In this document: piece by piece, positions 1,672 to 8,697 of the stretch
Position numbering within the stretch: position 1 is the stretch's first letter
Layout of the letters: each line of letters begins with the position of its first letter
NCBI GenBank assembly: GCA_017883345.1
Contig: JADGNT010000069.1
Location: 1 to 11,843 of the forward strand
Length of the DNA stretch: 11,843 nucleotides
Source of the DNA: Candidatus Solibacter sp.
GTDB lineage: Bacteria > Acidobacteriota > Terriglobia > Bryobacterales > Bryobacteraceae
Direction: 5' to 3'
Position numbers and translations under genes: made by a program
Notes under the pieces: generated by a model
The model's input: only the letters and a program-made list of their open reading frames with translations
What the model was told of the DNA's origin: nothing
Databases searched by the model: none

Positions 1672-1831
1672 GGACAAGATCGCGGCCGCGATCCGAACGA
1701 TGGCCACCGATCCGTTTCAGGGCGACGTCATCAAGCTCGAAGGAGCTGAAAACTGTTACCGCCGATGTGGCGCACGCACTCCTGCGTGCAGCGTCGAGTC
1801 TCACTCGACGCTCTGCGCCCTGGGGCAGTAA
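1604..1831 (+). pseudogene. RelE/ParE-superfamily toxin, 3' half lost to a repeat element
   Basis: The frame begins MTWILAVAKAAQKQLRRIPV and continues RDRDKIAAAIRTMATDPF and GDVIKLEGAENCYRR. This is the standard start of a RelE-type mRNA interferase: a strand, two helices with the 'LRRIP..DRDKI..AI..MA.DPF' pattern, then 'KLEGxxxxYRR'. Family members run to about 85-95 residues and continue with 'RVGDYRIxF', the strands that carry the basic and aromatic active-site residues. Here similarity stops after Arg54 (base 1765). The next codons belong to the palindromic repeat at 1767-1877, so residues 55-75 are translated repeat. The product should lack nuclease activity. It could still fold in part and bind the antitoxin. 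A weak trace of the lost 3' part may lie at 1893-1919 in another frame. Confidence 0.8.
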
Positions 1832-1877
1832 GCGTCGGCAAGAGTGCCGACGCGGCACGCAGGAGTGCGTGCGCCAC
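1767..1877. repeat. 111-bp BIME-like element with 23-bp inverted ends and four hairpins
   Basis: The terminal 23 bases (1767-1789 and 1855-1877) are perfect inverted copies beginning GTGGCGCACGC. Four perfect hairpins follow one another: GCACGCA (1772-1778, loop CTCC), AGCGTCGAGT (1790-1799, loop CTC), GCGTCGGCA (1832-1840, loop AGAG) and GCACGCA (1855-1861, loop GGAG). A weaker imperfect hairpin sits in the centre (1813-1828). The layout resembles two REP units in inverted orientation, the bacterial interspersed mosaic element arrangement that RAYT transposases are known to mobilise. No clear target duplication flanks it. It interrupts the toxin gene and lies just beyond the 3' end of the convergent GH106-like gene, where the stems could also act as a transcript end or mRNA stabiliser. 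Confidence 0.85.
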
Positions 1878-1912
1878 GGTAGCCAGTCAGCGCGCCGCGG
1901 ATACCGCGCAGT

Positions 1913-4900
1913 CTACGTACCTCGTTGGGAAACTACCGTCACCGGGCCGATCAGGCCCGATTCGGCCGGCGTCTGAGAGCCGCCGAACATACCCCCTCCT
2001 CCCCGGCCTCCCTGGGTGCCCGCGGGCGGCGCAGCTAGCACTCTCTTCTCCGGAGGACCCAGCCGGTCGCCTATCTGCCGGTTGGTCCACTGGTTGGTGA
2101 CCTTGATCTCCAACTGGTTCGCTCCCGCCTTCAGCACGCCGCTCGCGTCCAGTTGGTACGGCGCTTTCCACAATATCCCGAGCGCTTTGCCGTTGACCGA
2201 CACTTCGGCGAGGTCCTTCACCATCCCCAGGTCGAGCAGGACTTTCGCTCCGGGCCGGAACCAGCTTGGCGGCGCCTGCACGGACTTGGTGTAGGTGGCA
2301 GTCCCGGAGAAGTATTTCACGCTCGTATCCGGGTTCGCCGTCCACGATTCCAGCTTCGCCAATTGGATCTTCGCCGGCGCTCCGAAGTTGGGCGGAAAAG
2401 TCACAGTCCATGGTCCGCTCAGGGTTGCCACCGTGGTGCTGGCTGGGCGCACAATCGTGCGCGAGGGAGAGGCGGCCGCCCGCCGGAAGACCACGAACAC
2501 GCTCTCGCGTTCCGCCAGATGCAGCGGCACCGTGGTGCGGTCACTAGAGATCGCGTACCCGGCCGGAGAGATCTCTCCCGTGTCGGGATGCCAGAGCTCC
2601 GCCGCCTTGCCGGTCACGCGGAAGCGGGCCTCCAGATCGAGCTCGCGATCCGACCGGTTGGCCGCATAGTAGATGTCGGTATCGCCGGCCCTGCGATGGA
2701 TCCAAGGCATGGTGGCATCTAGCGCCTGGGTGCACTCGAAGTCCCTGGGGACCCGCAGCGTGGCCAGCACCTGCGCCGGCGGCAGGCCCCACACCACGTT
2801 GCCTTTCCCGTAGACCCGTTGGAAGCGGCTGATGCCGTCGAGATCGCCCCACACGCCGGCGGCCAGCGCCTCTAATTCCGTATCGGCATCGGGATACCCG
2901 GCCAGGCTCGGCGTTTTCCGCGGCTTCGGGCCCAACACGGTAGCGCCGCCCGCCACCAAGTCCCGGATTTTGCGCAGCACCGGCAGCGTCATGCGTTCTA
3001 TCGGCGGCAGCACCAGCACGCGGTAGCTCATGCCGTCCGGCAGGGTGAGGCGACCGTCCTCCTTCACCGACATCCGGTGGAGCACCACGTCCGCATTCAC
3101 GTAGTCGTAGTCGTAGCCCTCCGGCGGAGGCGGCTGCAAGCCCTGTCCCCAGATCGGCATCGTCGAGGGTGCGCCTTCCGGCAGCAGATACGCCAGGTCG
3201 GCCACGAAAAGGCCCTGTTGCAGCATGAAGGAGTTGCGCGCCAGGTAGGTCATGAACGGCCGCGCCTGTTCGGCCCACGTGATGTTGCGATGGATGTGCG
3301 TGCCCACCATGATGTTGCCGGGCTTGGTATCGAGCGGCTGGTGCGCCGAGGTGTGGAAGACGATGCGGTTGACGCCTTGCGCAAACCAGTAATCGCCAAT
3401 CTTCTTCAGCGTGTACGGCGCCTCATAACCGCCGCCGGTGAACGACTCCGTGGCCACCAGGTTCTTGCCGTAAACATGCGAGGCCGAAGCCGCGCCGCGA
3501 ACGTCCTGGTAGTACATGAGCTCGGGATGCAGCGCCCGCACCCAGAACTCGCCCATGGGGATGTCCACCTTGCTCTTGTTGAGCAGCGTGTCCTCGGCGA
3601 TTTCGAGCGAGACCCCCGCGGCTTCCGCATAGGTTCCGAGACCCCGCTGCCGCGCCATCTCCGCCATGGTGCCGAAGTGGTTGTCGGCGAACATGTCGGC
3701 GAGGGTGCGCCGGAAGTCCCATAGGAAGCGGTCGCTCGCTTCCGCGCTCTCCACCACCCGGCCGGCCAGGGCCGGAAGGTAGGGCGTCGGGTCGTAGCCG
3801 CGCCGCTGGCGGAACTCGCTCACCATCTCATCGGTCCAGTTCTGCATGCCCGCTTCCCAGCTATCCATGATGATGTACCGCAAGCCCTTGCCAAACAGCG
3901 GCCCCAGGGCCTGGGCGATGGGGTCGGTGTAGCCGCGGAAGTAGGCTTCCATATGTTGGCGGCTCAGCTTGTCGGCTTCGTAGCCGAGACCCGCCGGTGT
4001 GGCGGGGCGGTTCTTGGCCCCGGTTAGGGAGTAGCCCATGCGGAGGATGGTCCACTTGCCGGCCGGCACGTCCCAGTTGAGGCTGCCGTCTTTGGCCATC
4101 TTCGAAGTCAGGTCAAAGACATCGGCGCGCCGGATCGCGGCTGAGGAAGGCACCGCCGGGGTGGGCACGGATTCGTACTCGAACAGGAAGCTGAAACCCG
4201 CCTTTTCCTCCCAACGGTGCACCCGGCCGCCAGAGTGCAGCACGGCCTCCGCGAGGACGTACTCCTTGGCCGGTTGCGCGGAGGCCCCGCTCATCACCGC
4301 CGCGGGCGCCAGGAACGCGCCGGTCAGTTCCACGCGGTAGAATCGCGCGGCTGTCTCGGGAAACGCGAACGTCCGCACCGTGCCGCCGCGGTATAGTTGC
4401 GCGCCGGGCAGCACCGCCAGTGTTTTGAAGTTCACGCCGTCGGCACTGGCCAACACGCGGCCGGCCGGTATGCCGCCGCGGCCGGCGATGGTGATCGCCC
4501 GCGCCTGGAACGGCTGCGCGAACTCGAATTGCACCCACGCGGGGCCGCCGCCTTCCGGGGCGGGAATGGTGACCGTCGAGTTCAGGTCGTCATCCATCAG
4601 CGCGGCTCCGTCGATGGCGGCTGCGTCGATGGCGCCCGCGTTGGTGGTCACTTTCGGTGCGCGGTCGCTCATGCGGGCTTCTTCCGCCGGCGTCCGATAC
4701 GCCACCACGATGCTGTCGCCATAATACGTCGGGTCCGGGGGCGTGCCGGCCCGTCCGCCTCCCGTCCTCAGGTTGCGGATCGGCCCGTTATTGGAAGGCG
4801 GCTGCGGCAGCTTCCCGGCATAATTCAGCGGTCCAACGACCGCGGTCTCGCTCCACACGAGTTTCTTCATGGCCTGTTCGGGTTTGACCCACGGTCCGCC

Positions 4901-5281
4901 CGTCTCGCTCCAACCGGCGGAGCTGAAGATCGTCATCTCGAGGCCCAACCGGTCCGCCTCGGACGCCGCGTGGCGGACGGCATCCAGCCACTCGGGGCTG
5001 CCGAACAGAATCTTCTTCTCCACCGTCTGGCCGCTGCCCGAGGCGACGTCGGCCAACTGCATGCCGCCGATGCCAGAGCGCTTCATCCACTCCAGGTCCT
5101 TGCCGATCCCTTCCTTGGTGATGTTGCCATTGGTCCAGTGCCACCAGGTACGTGGCTTGGCCGAATCCGGCGGGTTCTTGAAACCTTGCTCGAGAGCGTC
5201 GCCCGGGTCCTGCGCCCCCACCAGGGCCAACAGCCCGGTGGCGGCCACCGCCATGGGGCCGTAAACACGAAACGGCTTCAA
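1913..5281 (-). CDS. Secreted GH106-like glycosidase (alpha-L-rhamnosidase-type)
   Basis: This 1122-residue protein starts at a TTG (5281) four bases after the strong ribosome site GAGGAGG (5286-5292), which makes the rare start convincing. Residues 1-23 are a signal peptide ending LVGA. Residues 35-85 hold the family signature FKNPPDSAKPRTWWHWTNGN, then DLEWMKRSGIGGMQLADV. A galactose-binding-like insert (about 225-350) interrupts the barrel. Conserved acidic sites follow: MDSWEAG (Asp473, Glu476), TYAEAAG (Glu553) and VATESFTGGG (Glu612), all plausible catalytic or metal residues. The C-terminus (about 940-1090) is a jelly-roll with EVSVNGKALGILWKAPYQLD and NQLEIKVTNQWTNRQIGDR, typical of this family. 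A glycine-rich stretch GGRGGGGMFGG follows. Known GH106 enzymes cleave alpha-L-rhamnosides in pectin-type glycans; the exact substrate here is inferred. It is the last gene of the tight minus-strand cluster. Confidence 0.9.
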   Translation of the reverse strand: MKPFRVYGPMAVAATGLLALVGAQDPGDALEQGFKNPPDSAKPRTWWHWTNGNITKEGIGKDLEWMKRSGIGGMQLADVASGSGQTVEKKILFGSPEWLDAVRHAASEADRLGLEMTIFSSAGWSETGGPWVKPEQAMKKLVWSETAVVGPLNYAGKLPQPPSNNGPIRNLRTGGGRAGTPPDPTYYGDSIVVAYRTPAEEARMSDRAPKVTTNAGAIDAAAIDGAALMDDDLNSTVTIPAPEGGGPAWVQFEFAQPFQARAITIAGRGGIPAGRVLASADGVNFKTLAVLPGAQLYRGGTVRTFAFPETAARFYRVELTGAFLAPAAVMSGASAQPAKEYVLAEAVLHSGGRVHRWEEKAGFSFLFEYESVPTPAVPSSAAIRRADVFDLTSKMAKDGSLNWDVPAGKWTILRMGYSLTGAKNRPATPAGLGYEADKLSRQHMEAYFRGYTDPIAQALGPLFGKGLRYIIMDSWEAGMQNWTDEMVSEFRQRRGYDPTPYLPALAGRVVESAEASDRFLWDFRRTLADMFADNHFGTMAEMARQRGLGTYAEAAGVSLEIAEDTLLNKSKVDIPMGEFWVRALHPELMYYQDVRGAASASHVYGKNLVATESFTGGGYEAPYTLKKIGDYWFAQGVNRIVFHTSAHQPLDTKPGNIMVGTHIHRNITWAEQARPFMTYLARNSFMLQQGLFVADLAYLLPEGAPSTMPIWGQGLQPPPPEGYDYDYVNADVVLHRMSVKEDGRLTLPDGMSYRVLVLPPIERMTLPVLRKIRDLVAGGATVLGPKPRKTPSLAGYPDADTELEALAAGVWGDLDGISRFQRVYGKGNVVWGLPPAQVLATLRVPRDFECTQALDATMPWIHRRAGDTDIYYAANRSDRELDLEARFRVTGKAAELWHPDTGEISPAGYAISSDRTTVPLHLAERESVFVVFRRAAASPSRTIVRPASTTVATLSGPWTVTFPPNFGAPAKIQLAKLESWTANPDTSVKYFSGTATYTKSVQAPPSWFRPGAKVLLDLGMVKDLAEVSVNGKALGILWKAPYQLDASGVLKAGANQLEIKVTNQWTNRQIGDRLGPPEKRVLAAPPAGTQGGRGGGGMFGGSQTPAESGLIGPVTVVSQRGT

Positions 5282-5305
5282 GCAACCTCCTCTCGGGGTC
5301 AGCCT

Positions 5306-5392
5306 GCAAACGCTCCCTAACGGTCGCGGCTCTGTAACTCACGCTGAATCGGCACGACCGTAACGGAGCCGCGACCGTTAGGGAGCGTTTGC
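5306..5392. repeat. 87-bp MITE-like palindrome with 11-bp flanking direct repeat
   Basis: Bases 5306-5332 and 5366-5392 are perfect 27-bp inverted copies beginning GCAAACGCTCCCTAACGG. The right half contains the unit CGACCGTAACGGAGC (5355-5369) and again CGACCGTTAGGGAGC (5372-5386), 13 of 15 matching; the left arm holds the same unit inverted. Immediately outside lie GGGGTCAGCCT (5295-5305) and GGGGTCAACCT (5393-5403), a 10-of-11 direct repeat that looks like a target-site duplication. The TGA stop of the upstream reductase lies inside the right copy. Removing the element and one copy restores a spacing of about 17 bases between that stop and the GH106-like start. The long stem should fold in the mRNA and could lower expression of the downstream gene. 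Confidence 0.85.
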
Positions 5393-5396
5393 GGGG

Positions 5397-6464
5397 TCAA
5401 CCTCTACTGACAAATTTGAAGAACATCGCCTGCTTGGAAACCGGCTCGGCCCGGGCGGCTAGCGTGGTCATCTGATGCGCGCTGAGCGGCGTGAAATCAC
5501 GCGCCAGTTGCACGTTCTCTTCCAGTTGTTTGATGGAATCGCAGCCGACGATCACCGTGCTGACCGGTAGCGTTAGAGCGTAGTACATGGCCTCGCGCAT
5601 CTCTAGCGGTCCCGGCGTAGTGGCGATCACCGCGCCTTCCCACGAGGTTTTCTGGCGCTCTAGCGGTGGCGGAGTCCAACTCGACAACAGCCGGCCGCGC
5701 GCCGGGATCTTCATCCCGATAATCCCCATCCGCTTCTCCACAGCCAGAGGCAGCAGCGTGTCCATAAAACTGAATTGGTGTCGATCCGCCGCGTTCAAGG
5801 CCATCAGGATGGCATCGAACGGAAACCGGCGTATGCCTTCGGCCAGCGCTTCCGGCCGGTAATGGCCGGTGATGCCCAAATGCCGGACGATCTTCTGCTC
5901 GTGCGCCTGCCGCAGTGCTTCCATGGCGCCGCCCTTGGCGAAAACCGCCTCCACGTCCTCGGCCAGGCCGATATCGTGCAATTGCCAGAGGTCCAGATGG
6001 TCCGTTTGCAGCAGCTTGAGCGACTCCTCCAGCATGCGCAGCGACCCATCGCGCGTCCGCTCTTTGGTCTTGCTGGCCAGAAAGGCCTCTGCCCGGCGCC
6101 GCCGCATGACCTCGCCGACATAGCGTTCGCTCCAGCGCCGCGGCCCGCCGTAGATCGAAGAAGTATCAATGTAGTTGACTCCCAGATCGAGCGCCCGCTC
6201 CACGATGGGCACGGCAATTGCCTGGTTATCGGGACGCTCCAGTGCGCCTTGGCCACCCAGGCTGAAAATTCCCACCTTATAGCCTGTTTGCCCCAAATTA
6301 CGGGTCGGCAGGGCCGGCGCCGTTGGGGAGTTCTGAGCGTGTGCCGGCACTCCGCTGGTTTGTTGGGCGCTGGCGGCACGCCCCAAAAGTCCGGCGGCGG
6401 CCGAACCGCCAACCTTTAGAAAGGCGCGCCGGCCTGCATTCTTGTCCTGACCGAGTTTTTTCAT
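5397..6464 (-). CDS. Tat-exported aldo/keto reductase
   Basis: This 355-residue protein opens with a twin-arginine signal (GRRAFLKVGG, residues 11-20) and the hydrophobic AAAGLLGRAASA, so it should be exported folded. The mature part is an aldo/keto reductase barrel. It has the full catalytic tetrad: Asp100 and Tyr105 (NYIDTSSIYGG), Lys132 (FLASKTKER) and His163 (LWQLHDIG). The C-terminal STVIVGCDSIKQLEENVQLA matches the nicotinamide-cofactor phosphate-binding region of the family. Family members interconvert aldehydes or ketones and alcohols, often sugars, using NADP(H). The start ATG has AGGAAG eight bases upstream. It lies 56 bases after the preceding reductase and was probably about 17 bases before the GH106-like gene until the repeat at 5306-5392 inserted. 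The two reductases are clearly distinct in sequence, so this is not a recent duplicate. Confidence 0.9.
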   Translation of the reverse strand: MKKLGQDKNAGRRAFLKVGGSAAAGLLGRAASAQQTSGVPAHAQNSPTAPALPTRNLGQTGYKVGIFSLGGQGALERPDNQAIAVPIVERALDLGVNYIDTSSIYGGPRRWSERYVGEVMRRRRAEAFLASKTKERTRDGSLRMLEESLKLLQTDHLDLWQLHDIGLAEDVEAVFAKGGAMEALRQAHEQKIVRHLGITGHYRPEALAEGIRRFPFDAILMALNAADRHQFSFMDTLLPLAVEKRMGIIGMKIPARGRLLSSWTPPPLERQKTSWEGAVIATTPGPLEMREAMYYALTLPVSTVIVGCDSIKQLEENVQLARDFTPLSAHQMTTLAARAEPVSKQAMFFKFVSRG

Positions 6465-6520
6465 TTTAATCTTCCTTTCCTGCCCTCAATCGAGTAAATC
6501 ATGCAACGGTGGATCTTGTC

Positions 6521-7492
6521 CTAGCGGCCTGCGGCATCGCGCTTCCAGTATTCCAGCGCGGGCCCCTTCAAACCGCCCGGCCCGGCGGTCACGGCGATCT
6601 TTCGCAGCCCCTCCATCTCTTCCGCGCCGAGCGGCTTGAAGCGTTGCGCGAACCGCACGTCATCATCCAATTGCCCGGTCGTGCTGGCGCCCAGCGCCGC
6701 GCAATGAATCGGCAGACTCAACACATATTTCAGACACTCCTCGGCGTTCATCACGCGCAGCAGGAAAGCGTTGCCGAAAACCTTGATCGCCTGAATTCCG
6801 ATGCCGCGCTCCACCGCCACCGGAAGCACCTCTTTTTCGAAACTCAAATAGGCCGGGTCGGCGGCGTGCAGCGGCATCAGGATGGAATCCCACTTGTCGT
6901 AAGCGTGCAGCATCGCGAGGTGCACCTTGGGATCGTGATGGCCGGTGAATCCGAAGAAGCGGCACTTGCCGGCCTTCCGGGCGGCTTCGAAAGCTTCGAT
7001 CGCACCGCCGGGACCGAAGATGCGGTCCACATCCGCCTGCTCCTGGATGCCGTGCATTTGCCAAAGATCGACGTGATCGGTCTTCAAGGCCCCGAGGGAA
7101 ATATGCAGTTCGTCCTCGGCCTCTTTCCTGGTTCGCCTGGTGCACTTGGTGGTCAGGAAGATGTTCTTGCGCACGTCCGAGAGCACGTCGCCATACACCT
7201 CTTCGGAATGCCCGTCCCAGTACGAGTGGGCGCAATCGAAGTAATTGAGCCCCAGCTCGTAGGCGTGGCGCACGTGGGCCCGGGCCGCTTCCTTGTTCCG
7301 CAGCAGCGCCAGCCGCGCTCCGCCCTGGCCTACCACGGTAAGTTTGACGCCCGTCTTGCCGAATGCCCGCATGGGCGTGCCGCCGGCTTGCGGTTTAGGC
7401 GGTTGGGCGCTAAGGCCCGTGATGCCGAGGCCCGCGAAAACGCCTCCTGCAAACGTTCTGCGCCGCATGGATGCGCGCCCGTTCGAAGTCAT
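6521..7492 (-). CDS. Tat-exported aldo/keto reductase, second paralog
   Basis: The frame is open farther upstream, but the start at 7492 is preferred. It has GGGAGGA five bases before the ATG, and it opens directly into a Tat-type signal (MRRRTFAGGVFAGLGITGLS, residues 9-28). The extended frame would overlap the amidohydrolase gene. The 323-residue product keeps the aldo/keto reductase tetrad: Asp86 and Tyr91 (NYFDCAHSYWDG), Lys116 (FLTTKCT) and His147 (LWQMHGI). The C-terminus CAALGASTTGQLDDDVRFAQ is the cofactor-binding end. It starts 20 bases after the amidohydrolase stop, so the two are almost certainly co-transcribed. Its natural substrate is unknown. A sugar or sugar acid released by the neighbouring hydrolases is reasonable. 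Its signal peptide has RRxF but lacks the Lys common in Tat motifs, so export through Tat is likely but not certain. Confidence 0.88.
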   Translation of the reverse strand: MTSNGRASMRRRTFAGGVFAGLGITGLSAQPPKPQAGGTPMRAFGKTGVKLTVVGQGGARLALLRNKEAARAHVRHAYELGLNYFDCAHSYWDGHSEEVYGDVLSDVRKNIFLTTKCTRRTRKEAEDELHISLGALKTDHVDLWQMHGIQEQADVDRIFGPGGAIEAFEAARKAGKCRFFGFTGHHDPKVHLAMLHAYDKWDSILMPLHAADPAYLSFEKEVLPVAVERGIGIQAIKVFGNAFLLRVMNAEECLKYVLSLPIHCAALGASTTGQLDDDVRFAQRFKPLGAEEMEGLRKIAVTAGPGGLKGPALEYWKRDAAGR

Positions 7493-7512
7493 GGTTCCTC
7501 CCAATCGATCCG

Positions 7513-8565
7513 TTAAAGCTTGTTCGCCATATCGATGCACAATTGAGTCACGAAATCGCGGTAGCTCCCGAGCCGCGCATCGCCACCCTTGGCCAGATAC
7601 GCCCGCAAGATCTTCCGATGGCTCTCCTCGGGAAAATCGATTCCCCTTTTCTGAAACAACCACACTGGAGCGTCGGTCTTCCAATCGGTGCGCGACCACT
7701 TGGCGTCGATCAACCGGGCCGGCCGGCTCTTTTGGAAGAAGTGCCGGTGCGCATTCTCGTAGAAGAACTTCCGGCGATCGGCGGCAGTGGGCGTGAGGCC
7801 GGCGGCGTCGATCCAACCTTGGGTGGAGCGATACGTCTCATCGCGCCACAGCGCTACCGGAAACTCGCTGCCATACATGATCCTGTCCCAGCCGGTCAGT
7901 TCGACCAGCGCCCGCGTCCAGATGCGCAGCGGTTCCCGATCCATGTAGCCTTGGCGCGAGAAAATGATCAGAAATCGAGGATGCCGGAACAGGCGGCCCA
8001 CCGCTTCATTCCTGGAGAAGATCAGCGGATCGGCCGGTCCCGCGAAATGCGTGCCGCACACTACGCATTCCGGGTAGCGTTGCAAAAAATCGACCAACTG
8101 CGGTGCGGCGGCTTTGTAACCCTCGCTGCCTTCCAGATAGGGAACGCCTCCCGCCTTTCCGACGAGGTCCAACAATCGCGGTTCCCTGGCAACTAACTCC
8201 GCTTGCAGCCGGATGCCCGTAAATCCGCACTCCATCTGTGCGGTGATGCAGTCGATCCTTTCCGGCGCCGACCGTCCCATCGGCATTCCGATCGAGCGCA
8301 AGCGATCGCCATATTGCACGGCGGCGCGGGACAGTTCGCGCAAGTCGGGGCAGGTGGCGGCAGTGCCTACGATGGCCGCTTCCACGCCGTTTGCGTCGAG
8401 AATCGCCAGAAATTCCTCCGCACTGAGGAATCGCGGCAGCGAGACGTGCCCCCACGCATCGATGATTTTCGGTTTCTCGTCCTGAGCTGTGGCGAGGCCG
8501 GCGGCGGAGGCGGCCGCGATTGAGGAAGCCACGAACTGCCGCCTCGTCGGAGGTACACCTTTCAT
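7513..8565 (-). CDS. Tat-exported amidohydrolase-2 family protein with altered metal site
   Basis: The chosen start at 8565 gives 350 residues beginning MKGVPPTRRQF, followed by a small-residue hydrophobic run VASSIAAASAAGLATA, a Tat signal. Longer starts would read back through the repeat at 8601-8697 and are rejected. The body is an amidohydrolase-2 (TIM-barrel metal hydrolase or decarboxylase) fold: KIIDAWGHVSLPRF (residues 33-46), AAIVGTAATC, VVCGTHFAG (His173), DRIMYGSEFPVALWRDE (residues 227-243) and NAHRHFF near the end. In the family the first motif is normally D-x-H-x-H and the late one GSDxP. Here they are D-A-W-G-H and GSEFP, so a metal ligand is missing and the usual catalytic Asp is Glu. 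Lactone hydrolysis or decarboxylation is the family role, but the altered site makes activity uncertain. It is the first gene of the minus-strand cluster. Confidence 0.85.
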   Translation of the reverse strand: MKGVPPTRRQFVASSIAAASAAGLATAQDEKPKIIDAWGHVSLPRFLSAEEFLAILDANGVEAAIVGTAATCPDLRELSRAAVQYGDRLRSIGMPMGRSAPERIDCITAQMECGFTGIRLQAELVAREPRLLDLVGKAGGVPYLEGSEGYKAAAPQLVDFLQRYPECVVCGTHFAGPADPLIFSRNEAVGRLFRHPRFLIIFSRQGYMDREPLRIWTRALVELTGWDRIMYGSEFPVALWRDETYRSTQGWIDAAGLTPTAADRRKFFYENAHRHFFQKSRPARLIDAKWSRTDWKTDAPVWLFQKRGIDFPEESHRKILRAYLAKGGDARLGSYRDFVTQLCIDMANKL

Positions 8566-8600
8566 GGCACCCGTTTTAGCACAATGCCGCGCGAGTAGCC

Positions 8601-8697
8601 ATGTGGGGCGGTCCCCCTGGACCGCGGCGGACGCCTCGTCCGCCCGCCGATAGCCGGCCAGGGGGCCCGGCCGCGGGCGAGGGCGCCCGCCCCACAT
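8601..8697. repeat. 97-bp BIME-like element with 11-bp inverted ends and four hairpins
   Basis: The ends ATGTGGGGCGG (8601-8611) and CCGCCCCACAT (8687-8697) are perfect inverted copies. Inside are GCGGTCC (8608-8614, loop CCCT), GGCGGACG (8626-8633, loop CCT), CGGCC (8655-8659, loop AGGGGGCCC) and GCGGGCG (8673-8679, loop AGGG), each with its complement. CCCCCTGG (8613-8620) also pairs with CCAGGGGG (8658-8665). It fills most of the 212-base gap between the divergent amidohydrolase and serine hydrolase genes, so it sits where their promoters should be. Outer GTGG ends, hairpin number and loop polarity match the element at 1767-1877, though the sequence does not. No target duplication is evident. 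Confidence 0.8.

Follow-up and report, generated by a model that had tools for sequence, protein, structure and literature searches.

The window analysed here, 11,843 nucleotides long, is the whole of one contig (C418) from a 5.45 Mb, 890-contig, 79%-complete assembly of Candidatus Solibacter sp. A gene for a GH106 alpha-L-rhamnosidase occupies 1913-7492, beside the first of two palindromic elements, and two aldo/keto reductase genes adjoin on the same strand. Element 1 is found downstream of the GH106 gene, 35 nt from its 3' end, and element 2 has divergent genes on its two sides, provided that the amidohydrolase start is the ATG at 8565. Both elements fall outside genes as bounded here; a longer, TTG-start amidohydrolase ORF would cover element 2. 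Their parts are as follows.

1767..1877, plus strand: element 1, probable REPIN of the CTC-loop family, two two-hairpin units in inverted orientation
1767..1811, plus strand: left unit of element 1, made up of a GTGG foot (1767-1770), hairpin A with loop CTCC (1772-1789) and hairpin B with loop CTC (1791-1811)
1832..1877, minus strand: right, inverted unit of element 1; hairpin B 1832-1853, hairpin A 1855-1872, foot 1874-1877; plus-strand loops AGAG (1832-1853) and GGAG (1855-1872), minus-strand CTCT and CTCC
8603..8695, plus strand: element 2, probable REPIN of the CCCT-loop family, two two-hairpin units in inverted orientation
8603..8644, plus strand: left unit of element 2, made up of a GTGG foot (8603-8606), hairpin A with loop CCCT (8608-8625) and hairpin B with loop CCT (8626-8644)
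8655..8695, minus strand: right, inverted unit of element 2; degenerate hairpin B 8655-8673, hairpin A 8673-8690, foot 8692-8695; plus-strand loops AGGGGGCCC (8655-8673) and AGGG (8673-8690), minus-strand loop of hairpin A CCCT

A preliminary description of the window had reported two four-hairpin elements running from GTGG to CCAC, and this was borne out: a strict search for the layout matched the window at exactly these two places and matched none of 60 dinucleotide-shuffled windows. Element 1 extends from GTGG at 1767 to CCAC at 1877 and element 2 from GTGG at 8603 to CCAC at 8695; the span of 8601-8697 given earlier for the latter takes in the right element but adds AT on either side. Four perfect hairpins had been attributed to each element. 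The loops are as described, but the third hairpin of element 2 is degenerate, with 5 bp, a 9-nt loop and base 8673 in common with the fourth hairpin. At this position a copy elsewhere (L032) has 8 bp and a 4-nt loop, the window's element 2 carrying one extra C. It is fair to say that the two elements have almost no sequence in common, as neither element's BLAST list from its own genome contains the window's other element. What they share is GTGG, one base and a stem beginning GC (their first letters are GTGGCGC and GTGGGGC, respectively), and the G+C content of element 2 is 86%. The pyrimidine-rich loops on the left and purine-rich loops on the right are present but do not count as independent evidence, because the right half of each element is the left half inverted.

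Folded as single strands, elements 1 and 2 gave z scores of -12.5 and -3.5, respectively, and 0 of 200 shuffles were as good in either case. In the predicted minimum-energy folds of both, the outer arms pair to give one long hairpin with inner hairpins, not four separate ones. Four separate hairpins would be one of two possible shapes, and local hairpins are supported by the single units found beside RAYT genes, in many cases with no inverted partner nearby.

Neither element is a single-copy coincidence. A BLAST search of element 1 against its own genome gave 68 rows at E≤10; the best 17, counting its own place, align over 105-144 nt at 83-100% identity. Element 2 gave 51 rows at E≤10, of which 5 (own place included) span 99-135 nt. 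These row counts include weak tails and both strands of palindromic places, and the near-palindromic form of the elements allows one place to yield two rows. Since several matches are found no more than about 50 nt from a contig end (e.g. in C291, C441, C23, C272 and C393), copies are probably undercounted. The hairpin-A pattern of each element was also sought in the same genome, with 80 places for element 1 and 26 for element 2. The reversed control pattern found none there and only 4 in 150 genomes of the family, against 1803 for the element 1 pattern, and one family includes genomes with no copies as well as genomes with over 200. Clean GTGG...C[CT]AC ends were seen in 17 of 20 element 1 copies examined, the orientation of one copy having been set manually. 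One copy (L025, C454:2832-2976) has outer hairpins with matching complementary insertions, as if the arms change in concert, and six other entries (L032-L035, L015 and L041) form MITE-like composites around a REPIN core. In nine genomes of the genus the flanking gene is present but has lost its neighbouring synteny, and no empty site could be called there.

The window holds a third inverted repeat at 5296-5402, with 43-nt arms that are 86% complementary and the core CTCCCTAACGGTCGCGGCTC. It gave 94 alignment rows in its own genome at E≤0.001, and its core matched 9 times (at most 3 substitutions, both strands) in 60 sampled contigs. Its ends showed no GTGG foot, and a search of the eight Y1_Tnp loci did not find its core.

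The likeness of each element to two inverted REP-like units stood, except that each unit comprises two hairpins rather than one. In this genome the unit consists of GTGG, usually one base, hairpin A, 0-2 nt and hairpin B (73 units were listed, a few of them plainly unrelated). In general form it is GT[AG]G, usually one base, hairpin A of 6-8 bp, usually 0-2 nt, and hairpin B of mostly 6-10 bp. The loop families present are CTC (element 1), CCCT (element 2), GTC/GTT, and ATCC with TTC. A hairpin B of at least 7 bp follows 32 of 39 CTC places, compared with none in shuffled 30-mers. The elements are not members of two unrelated families lacking a common foot: in 60 contigs sampled at nearly even steps (378,341 nt), GTGG was the commonest tetranucleotide before hairpins of at least 7 bp (31 of 426 on both strands, followed by CTGC with 25) and also before double hairpins (10 of 36). 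One dinucleotide shuffle of these contigs gave 264 hairpins and 6 double hairpins, with GTGG not among the top feet listed.

Pairing in the stems was measured in two sets of copies. The hairpin-A pattern fixed 4 of 7 pairs; the three left free all pair in 40 of 41 places in the same genome (0.6 expected), where variation is mostly at one of the three, and in 16 of 22 places in relatives (0.3 expected). Among the 17 element 1 copies found by BLAST, 99.1% of 527 cells pair, the covariation score is 0.090 against 0.033 after shuffling (reached by 0 of 500 shuffles), and 13 cells are changed on both sides against 3.3 after shuffling. Only 3 of 31 pairs show a change on both sides, a count reached by 166 of 500 shuffles.

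These 17 copies alone were used to build a covariance model; a mixed-family alignment, in which hairpin B was misaligned, was dropped. Within the window the model ranked element 2 second (20.8 bits, E 0.006), well ahead of the next match at 12.0 bits, the E-values being rough and the high G+C of element 2 possibly helping its score. This ranking lends support to the earlier suggestion of a modular superfamily of REP-like units. In the 60 sampled contigs the model found two elements of the ATC-loop family (L123 and L125, E below 1e-6) and did not detect a CCCT-family element at L082:6864-6986. It matched 10 of 21 relatives' genomes, one of them in another family of the order, with only 150 candidates scored per genome (6298 in the own genome) and matches counted on both strands.

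A RAYT-type transposase had been proposed to move these repeats, and RAYT genes are present in the same genome. Seven Y1_Tnp matches exceed the cut-off, and five of them (L060-L064) are of the RAYT type studied here. In these five, H94, H96 and Y153 (the HUH motif and catalytic Tyr) are invariant, the motif YIE-x-NP (YIExNP) is found, and the best NCBIfam match is NF047646 (REP-associated tyrosine transposase), at scores below its cut-off (67-79.7 of 80). The best PDB match of the RAYT profile is 4er8 (TnpArep; E 6e-9). One gene, L064, encodes a 200-residue RAYT and is flanked by two inward-facing units of the element 1 (CTC) type, the second of which lies inside the 3' end of the RAYT frame. 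Relatives were found in 87 of the 150 genomes of the family at E≤1e-10. Among the matches listed, the closest named ones are from Bryobacterales MAGs, which points to Bryobacteraceae as the host family. A separate IS200-like transposase ORF (L058:1069-1521), with a DHVH and a Y----Q type motif and without a flanking pair of GTGG hairpins, may represent another Y1 class.

Units were then sought beside 114 RAYT loci, made up of 30 chosen automatically, 4 of the own ones (5 own loci in all, and 109 from relatives) and 80 further listed matches spanning at least 150 query residues, a selection that leaves out shorter matches and some lower-listed ones of that span. With no more than one mismatch and a spacer of up to 3 nt allowed, a two-hairpin unit occurs within 500 nt at 60 of the 114 loci: upstream at 47, downstream at 48 and on both sides at 35. 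The nearest unit faces inward in 39 of 47 upstream and 43 of 48 downstream cases. When double hairpins were sought without reference to a foot, 196 were found in 49,760 nt beside RAYT genes and 16 in 193,188 nt further off, a density about 48 times higher beside the genes (both strands counted). The commonest foot of these double hairpins beside RAYT genes was GTGG, in 65 cases, and GTAG occurred in 13, each place being counted on both strands.

The number of hairpins per unit follows the RAYT phylogeny. The tree of the 114 sequences is a quick, midpoint-rooted one, with 11 of its 111 inner branches starred. In one clade (SH-aLRT 97), 60 of 83 loci have two-hairpin units; its sister clade has them at 0 of 31 loci, with single GT[AG]G hairpins flanking the gene on both sides at 13 and on one side at 6 (19 of 31 in all). 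Scored as double or single hairpin over 73 rows, the character changes once on the tree, whereas 200 shuffles need 10 or more changes. The direction of this change is only inferred, because the tree is rooted at its midpoint. Among the best 80 of the named loci, two-hairpin units occur at 13 of 41 from Acidobacteriota (on both sides at 4) and at 2 of 39 from elsewhere, both one-sided and with one mismatch each; a single hairpin on at least one side was found at 11 of 16 loci from Verrucomicrobiota and 3 of 6 from Pseudomonadota. Single hairpins outside the phylum and the rarity of doubles there fit the gain of a second hairpin. No two-hairpin unit was detected at 23 of the 83 loci of the tandem-hairpin clade (L159, L163 and 21 others), three of which have a single hairpin on one side; these RAYTs may have decayed units or may use another recognition site.

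The loops of the two hairpins are related to each other and to the RAYT. Hairpins A and B share a loop 3-mer in 69 of 95 units beside RAYT genes, compared with 31.2 (sd 4.1) when B is shuffled, and in 42 of 60 when one unit is taken per locus, compared with 19.6 (sd 3.3), both comparisons ignoring relatedness. In none of the 95 units do the stems of A and B begin with the same three bases, and hairpin B is therefore not a plain copy of A. When loops are sorted into classes by our own regular expressions, the RAYT tree requires 13 class changes for A and 14 for B, compared with 36.5 and 33.7 after shuffling. Element 1 fits the CTC branch of RAYTs, to which L064 of the same genome belongs. Element 2 fits the CCCT branch; no RAYT of this branch was among those fetched from the own, 79%-complete assembly, and such a RAYT (L199) does occur in a genome of the same genus (G130), flanked on one side by a CCT/CCCC unit. 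The loop rule has exceptions, in that the A and B loops of the ATC branch are unlike (AATC and TTTC) and L139, within the CTC branch, has TTCA loops. The earlier proposal was that the repeats could be recognised by their shape and GTGG foot; the foot is indeed kept, together with a loop specific to each family, rather than shape alone.

Copy numbers point the same way. In the 42 genomes where at least one type reaches 5 or more copies, presence of the matching RAYT branch is the best predictor of how many copies a loop type has, with AUC values of 0.73 (CTC), 0.82 (CCCT), 0.75 (TTG) and 0.90 (ATC) against 0.44-0.65 in the other cells, branch membership here covering only the 114 sampled loci. 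The link becomes less specific when all 150 genomes are taken: RAYTs of the CTC branch accompany CCCT repeats too (p 2e-5), and those of the TTG branch are tied more to CTC repeats (p 0.006) than to TTG repeats (p 0.02). Of the 12 genomes with a sampled CCCT-branch RAYT, 6 have at least 5 copies of the CCCT pattern, as do 16 of the 138 genomes without a sampled one, among them the own genome.

We considered whether the repeats might be spread by other means, such as recombination or as cargo in MITE-like elements with another transposase, with units lying beside RAYT genes by chance. Four relatives of element 2 (L032-L035) do lie inside 22-24 nt inverted repeats (AGGGCTATGTGCTTGACTCAGGTA or near), L015 and L041 lie inside others, and the lack of a CCCT-branch RAYT among those fetched from the own genome would also suit this explanation. 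However, 24 of 30 entries have no flanking repeat within 90 nt (two of these have little flank left), and with only 6 of 30 flagged we rejected flanking inverted repeats as the general mobile unit. The dense and mostly inward-facing double hairpins beside RAYT genes, and a loop type that tracks the RAYT branch, make such an explanation unlikely. It also seems quite improbable that the elements are RNA or DNA structures kept by the host (terminators, mRNA stabilisers or protein sites), their link with RAYTs being a relic. The position of element 1 just past a gene and that of element 2 between divergent genes would suit such roles, which REPs elsewhere are described as having in passages of PMC3686654, but the foot and the loop code would be unnecessary for them, copy numbers vary too widely within one family, and the elements had no match in Rfam at gathering score.

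Finally, the second hairpin could be a chance or unrelated neighbour of an ordinary single-hairpin REP. The single hairpins of the sister-clade RAYTs and the greater variability of hairpin B in stem and spacing are compatible with this; the regular presence of hairpin B after CTC places and at the loci of one RAYT clade, and loop sharing between A and B far above that seen after shuffling, already contradict it and leave it highly improbable.

Much of what we describe is established for the REP/REPIN and RAYT systems (REPtrons) of Pseudomonas, Stenotrophomonas and E. coli. Comparisons with known systems draw on passages of PMC3733652, PMC6006769, PMC8266576, PMC3686654, PMC2817692 and PMC3174227, among which the nearest description is that of the double palindromic TIRs of PMC3733652. 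A GT(A/G)G head beside a GC-rich palindrome, inverted pairs in many copies, an HUH/Y1 transposase gene flanked by units in inverted orientation and a link between REP type and RAYT type are all features of REPtrons in the passages of PMC2817692 and PMC3686654. However, the REPs described there have one palindrome per unit, whereas here there are two in tandem, often with a shared loop, which makes these repeats a variant of the REP kind. The host also differs, as PMC2817692 found RAYTs suiting its criteria only in gammaproteobacteria.

The double-foot REPs of TnpAREP subclass 2.4 (PMC6006769) likewise carry GT[AG]G and C[TC]AC at opposite ends, with NH[IFV]H and WQ motifs in the transposase. 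As described there, they form a single long hairpin with two feet and their enzymes carry YIxNNP; the elements here have four hairpins and no layout of that kind, and the own RAYTs have YIE-x-NP and no YIxNNP, so this class was ruled out. Class 3 TnpAY1 repeats (CnGA foot, YV..EQ transposase) were ruled out on the GTGG foot and the YIExNP motif. The double palindromic TIRs of TIRYTs (PMC3733652) resemble our elements in having two adjacent palindromes by a RAYT-like gene, in the same phylum, and the acidobacterial TIRYTs form a group. By that paper's text, most TIRs are described as unrelated to GTAG repeats, some have GGGGWSAS, and two from Pseudomonas join a degenerate GTAG unit to an unrelated stem-loop. 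The elements here have a GT[AG]G foot and no GGGGWSAS at it, and an acidobacterial TIRYT with that motif was ruled out at their ends (GTGGCGC and GTGGGGC), although the double palindromic TIRs of PMC3733652 may include related things. For the group 3 TnpAREP enzymes of Stenotrophomonas and Marinomonas (PMC8266576), cleavage depends on particular loop bases, and a GTGG foot permits cutting at CC; the Marinomonas enzyme cut GTGG substrates at CC and, less efficiently, at CA. Unlike the repeats here, those of group 3 have a single hairpin, and the passages concerned describe no loop code across a RAYT tree.

REPs, REPINs, RAYTs and GT[AG]G feet are thus known, and what is new here is the tandem-hairpin unit, although we do not claim that it is absent from print. 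No description of tandem-hairpin REPs with a shared loop was found in the titles and abstracts listed for PMC papers, a search whose scope excluded subscription journals, most preprints, figures and supplements. The automatic search of one genome survey defined REPs as one hairpin, short or long, with some atypical structures obtained by manual inspection (PMC6006769), and under that single-hairpin definition tandem pairs would go unreported as such.

Taken together, elements 1 and 2 are best explained as REPINs of a tandem-hairpin REP superfamily in Acidobacteriota, with cognate RAYTs (probability about 0.85), the family concerned being very probably Bryobacteraceae. We suggest that a RAYT would bind its cognate unit as single-stranded DNA, reading the GTGG foot and the loops of A and B, and would cleave beside the structure to mobilise or copy REPINs of its loop type. 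By analogy with the Marinomonas enzyme, a CC dinucleotide would be a plausible cleavage site with a GTGG foot. Stems would drift by paired changes, pairing being what matters there, and new families may arise when a RAYT branch and both loops change together. We favour a second protein contact as the role of hairpin B, since in most families B carries the same loop as A on another stem. We lean slightly towards a wider scheme in which the bipartite REP arose once in a Bryobacteraceae RAYT clade, its two tandem hairpins read through a shared loop word, with RAYT branch and both loops co-changing and several loop codes (ACTCR, CCCY, TTGNNAA, and AATC with TTTC) living side by side in one genome as separate populations of mobile repeats.

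As to how a RAYT chooses its REP, the identity of loop bases counts in two group 3 systems with a single hairpin but is of no importance in E. coli (passages of PMC8266576). The Bryobacteraceae offer a natural series in this respect, with RAYT branches that have their own loop words while foot and architecture stay nearly constant, together with a sister clade that has single hairpins. This series puts the recognition code, as well as the transition from one hairpin to two, within direct reach of experiment. It also indicates that repeats without visible sequence similarity can form one superfamily, which sequence-based repeat finders would split.
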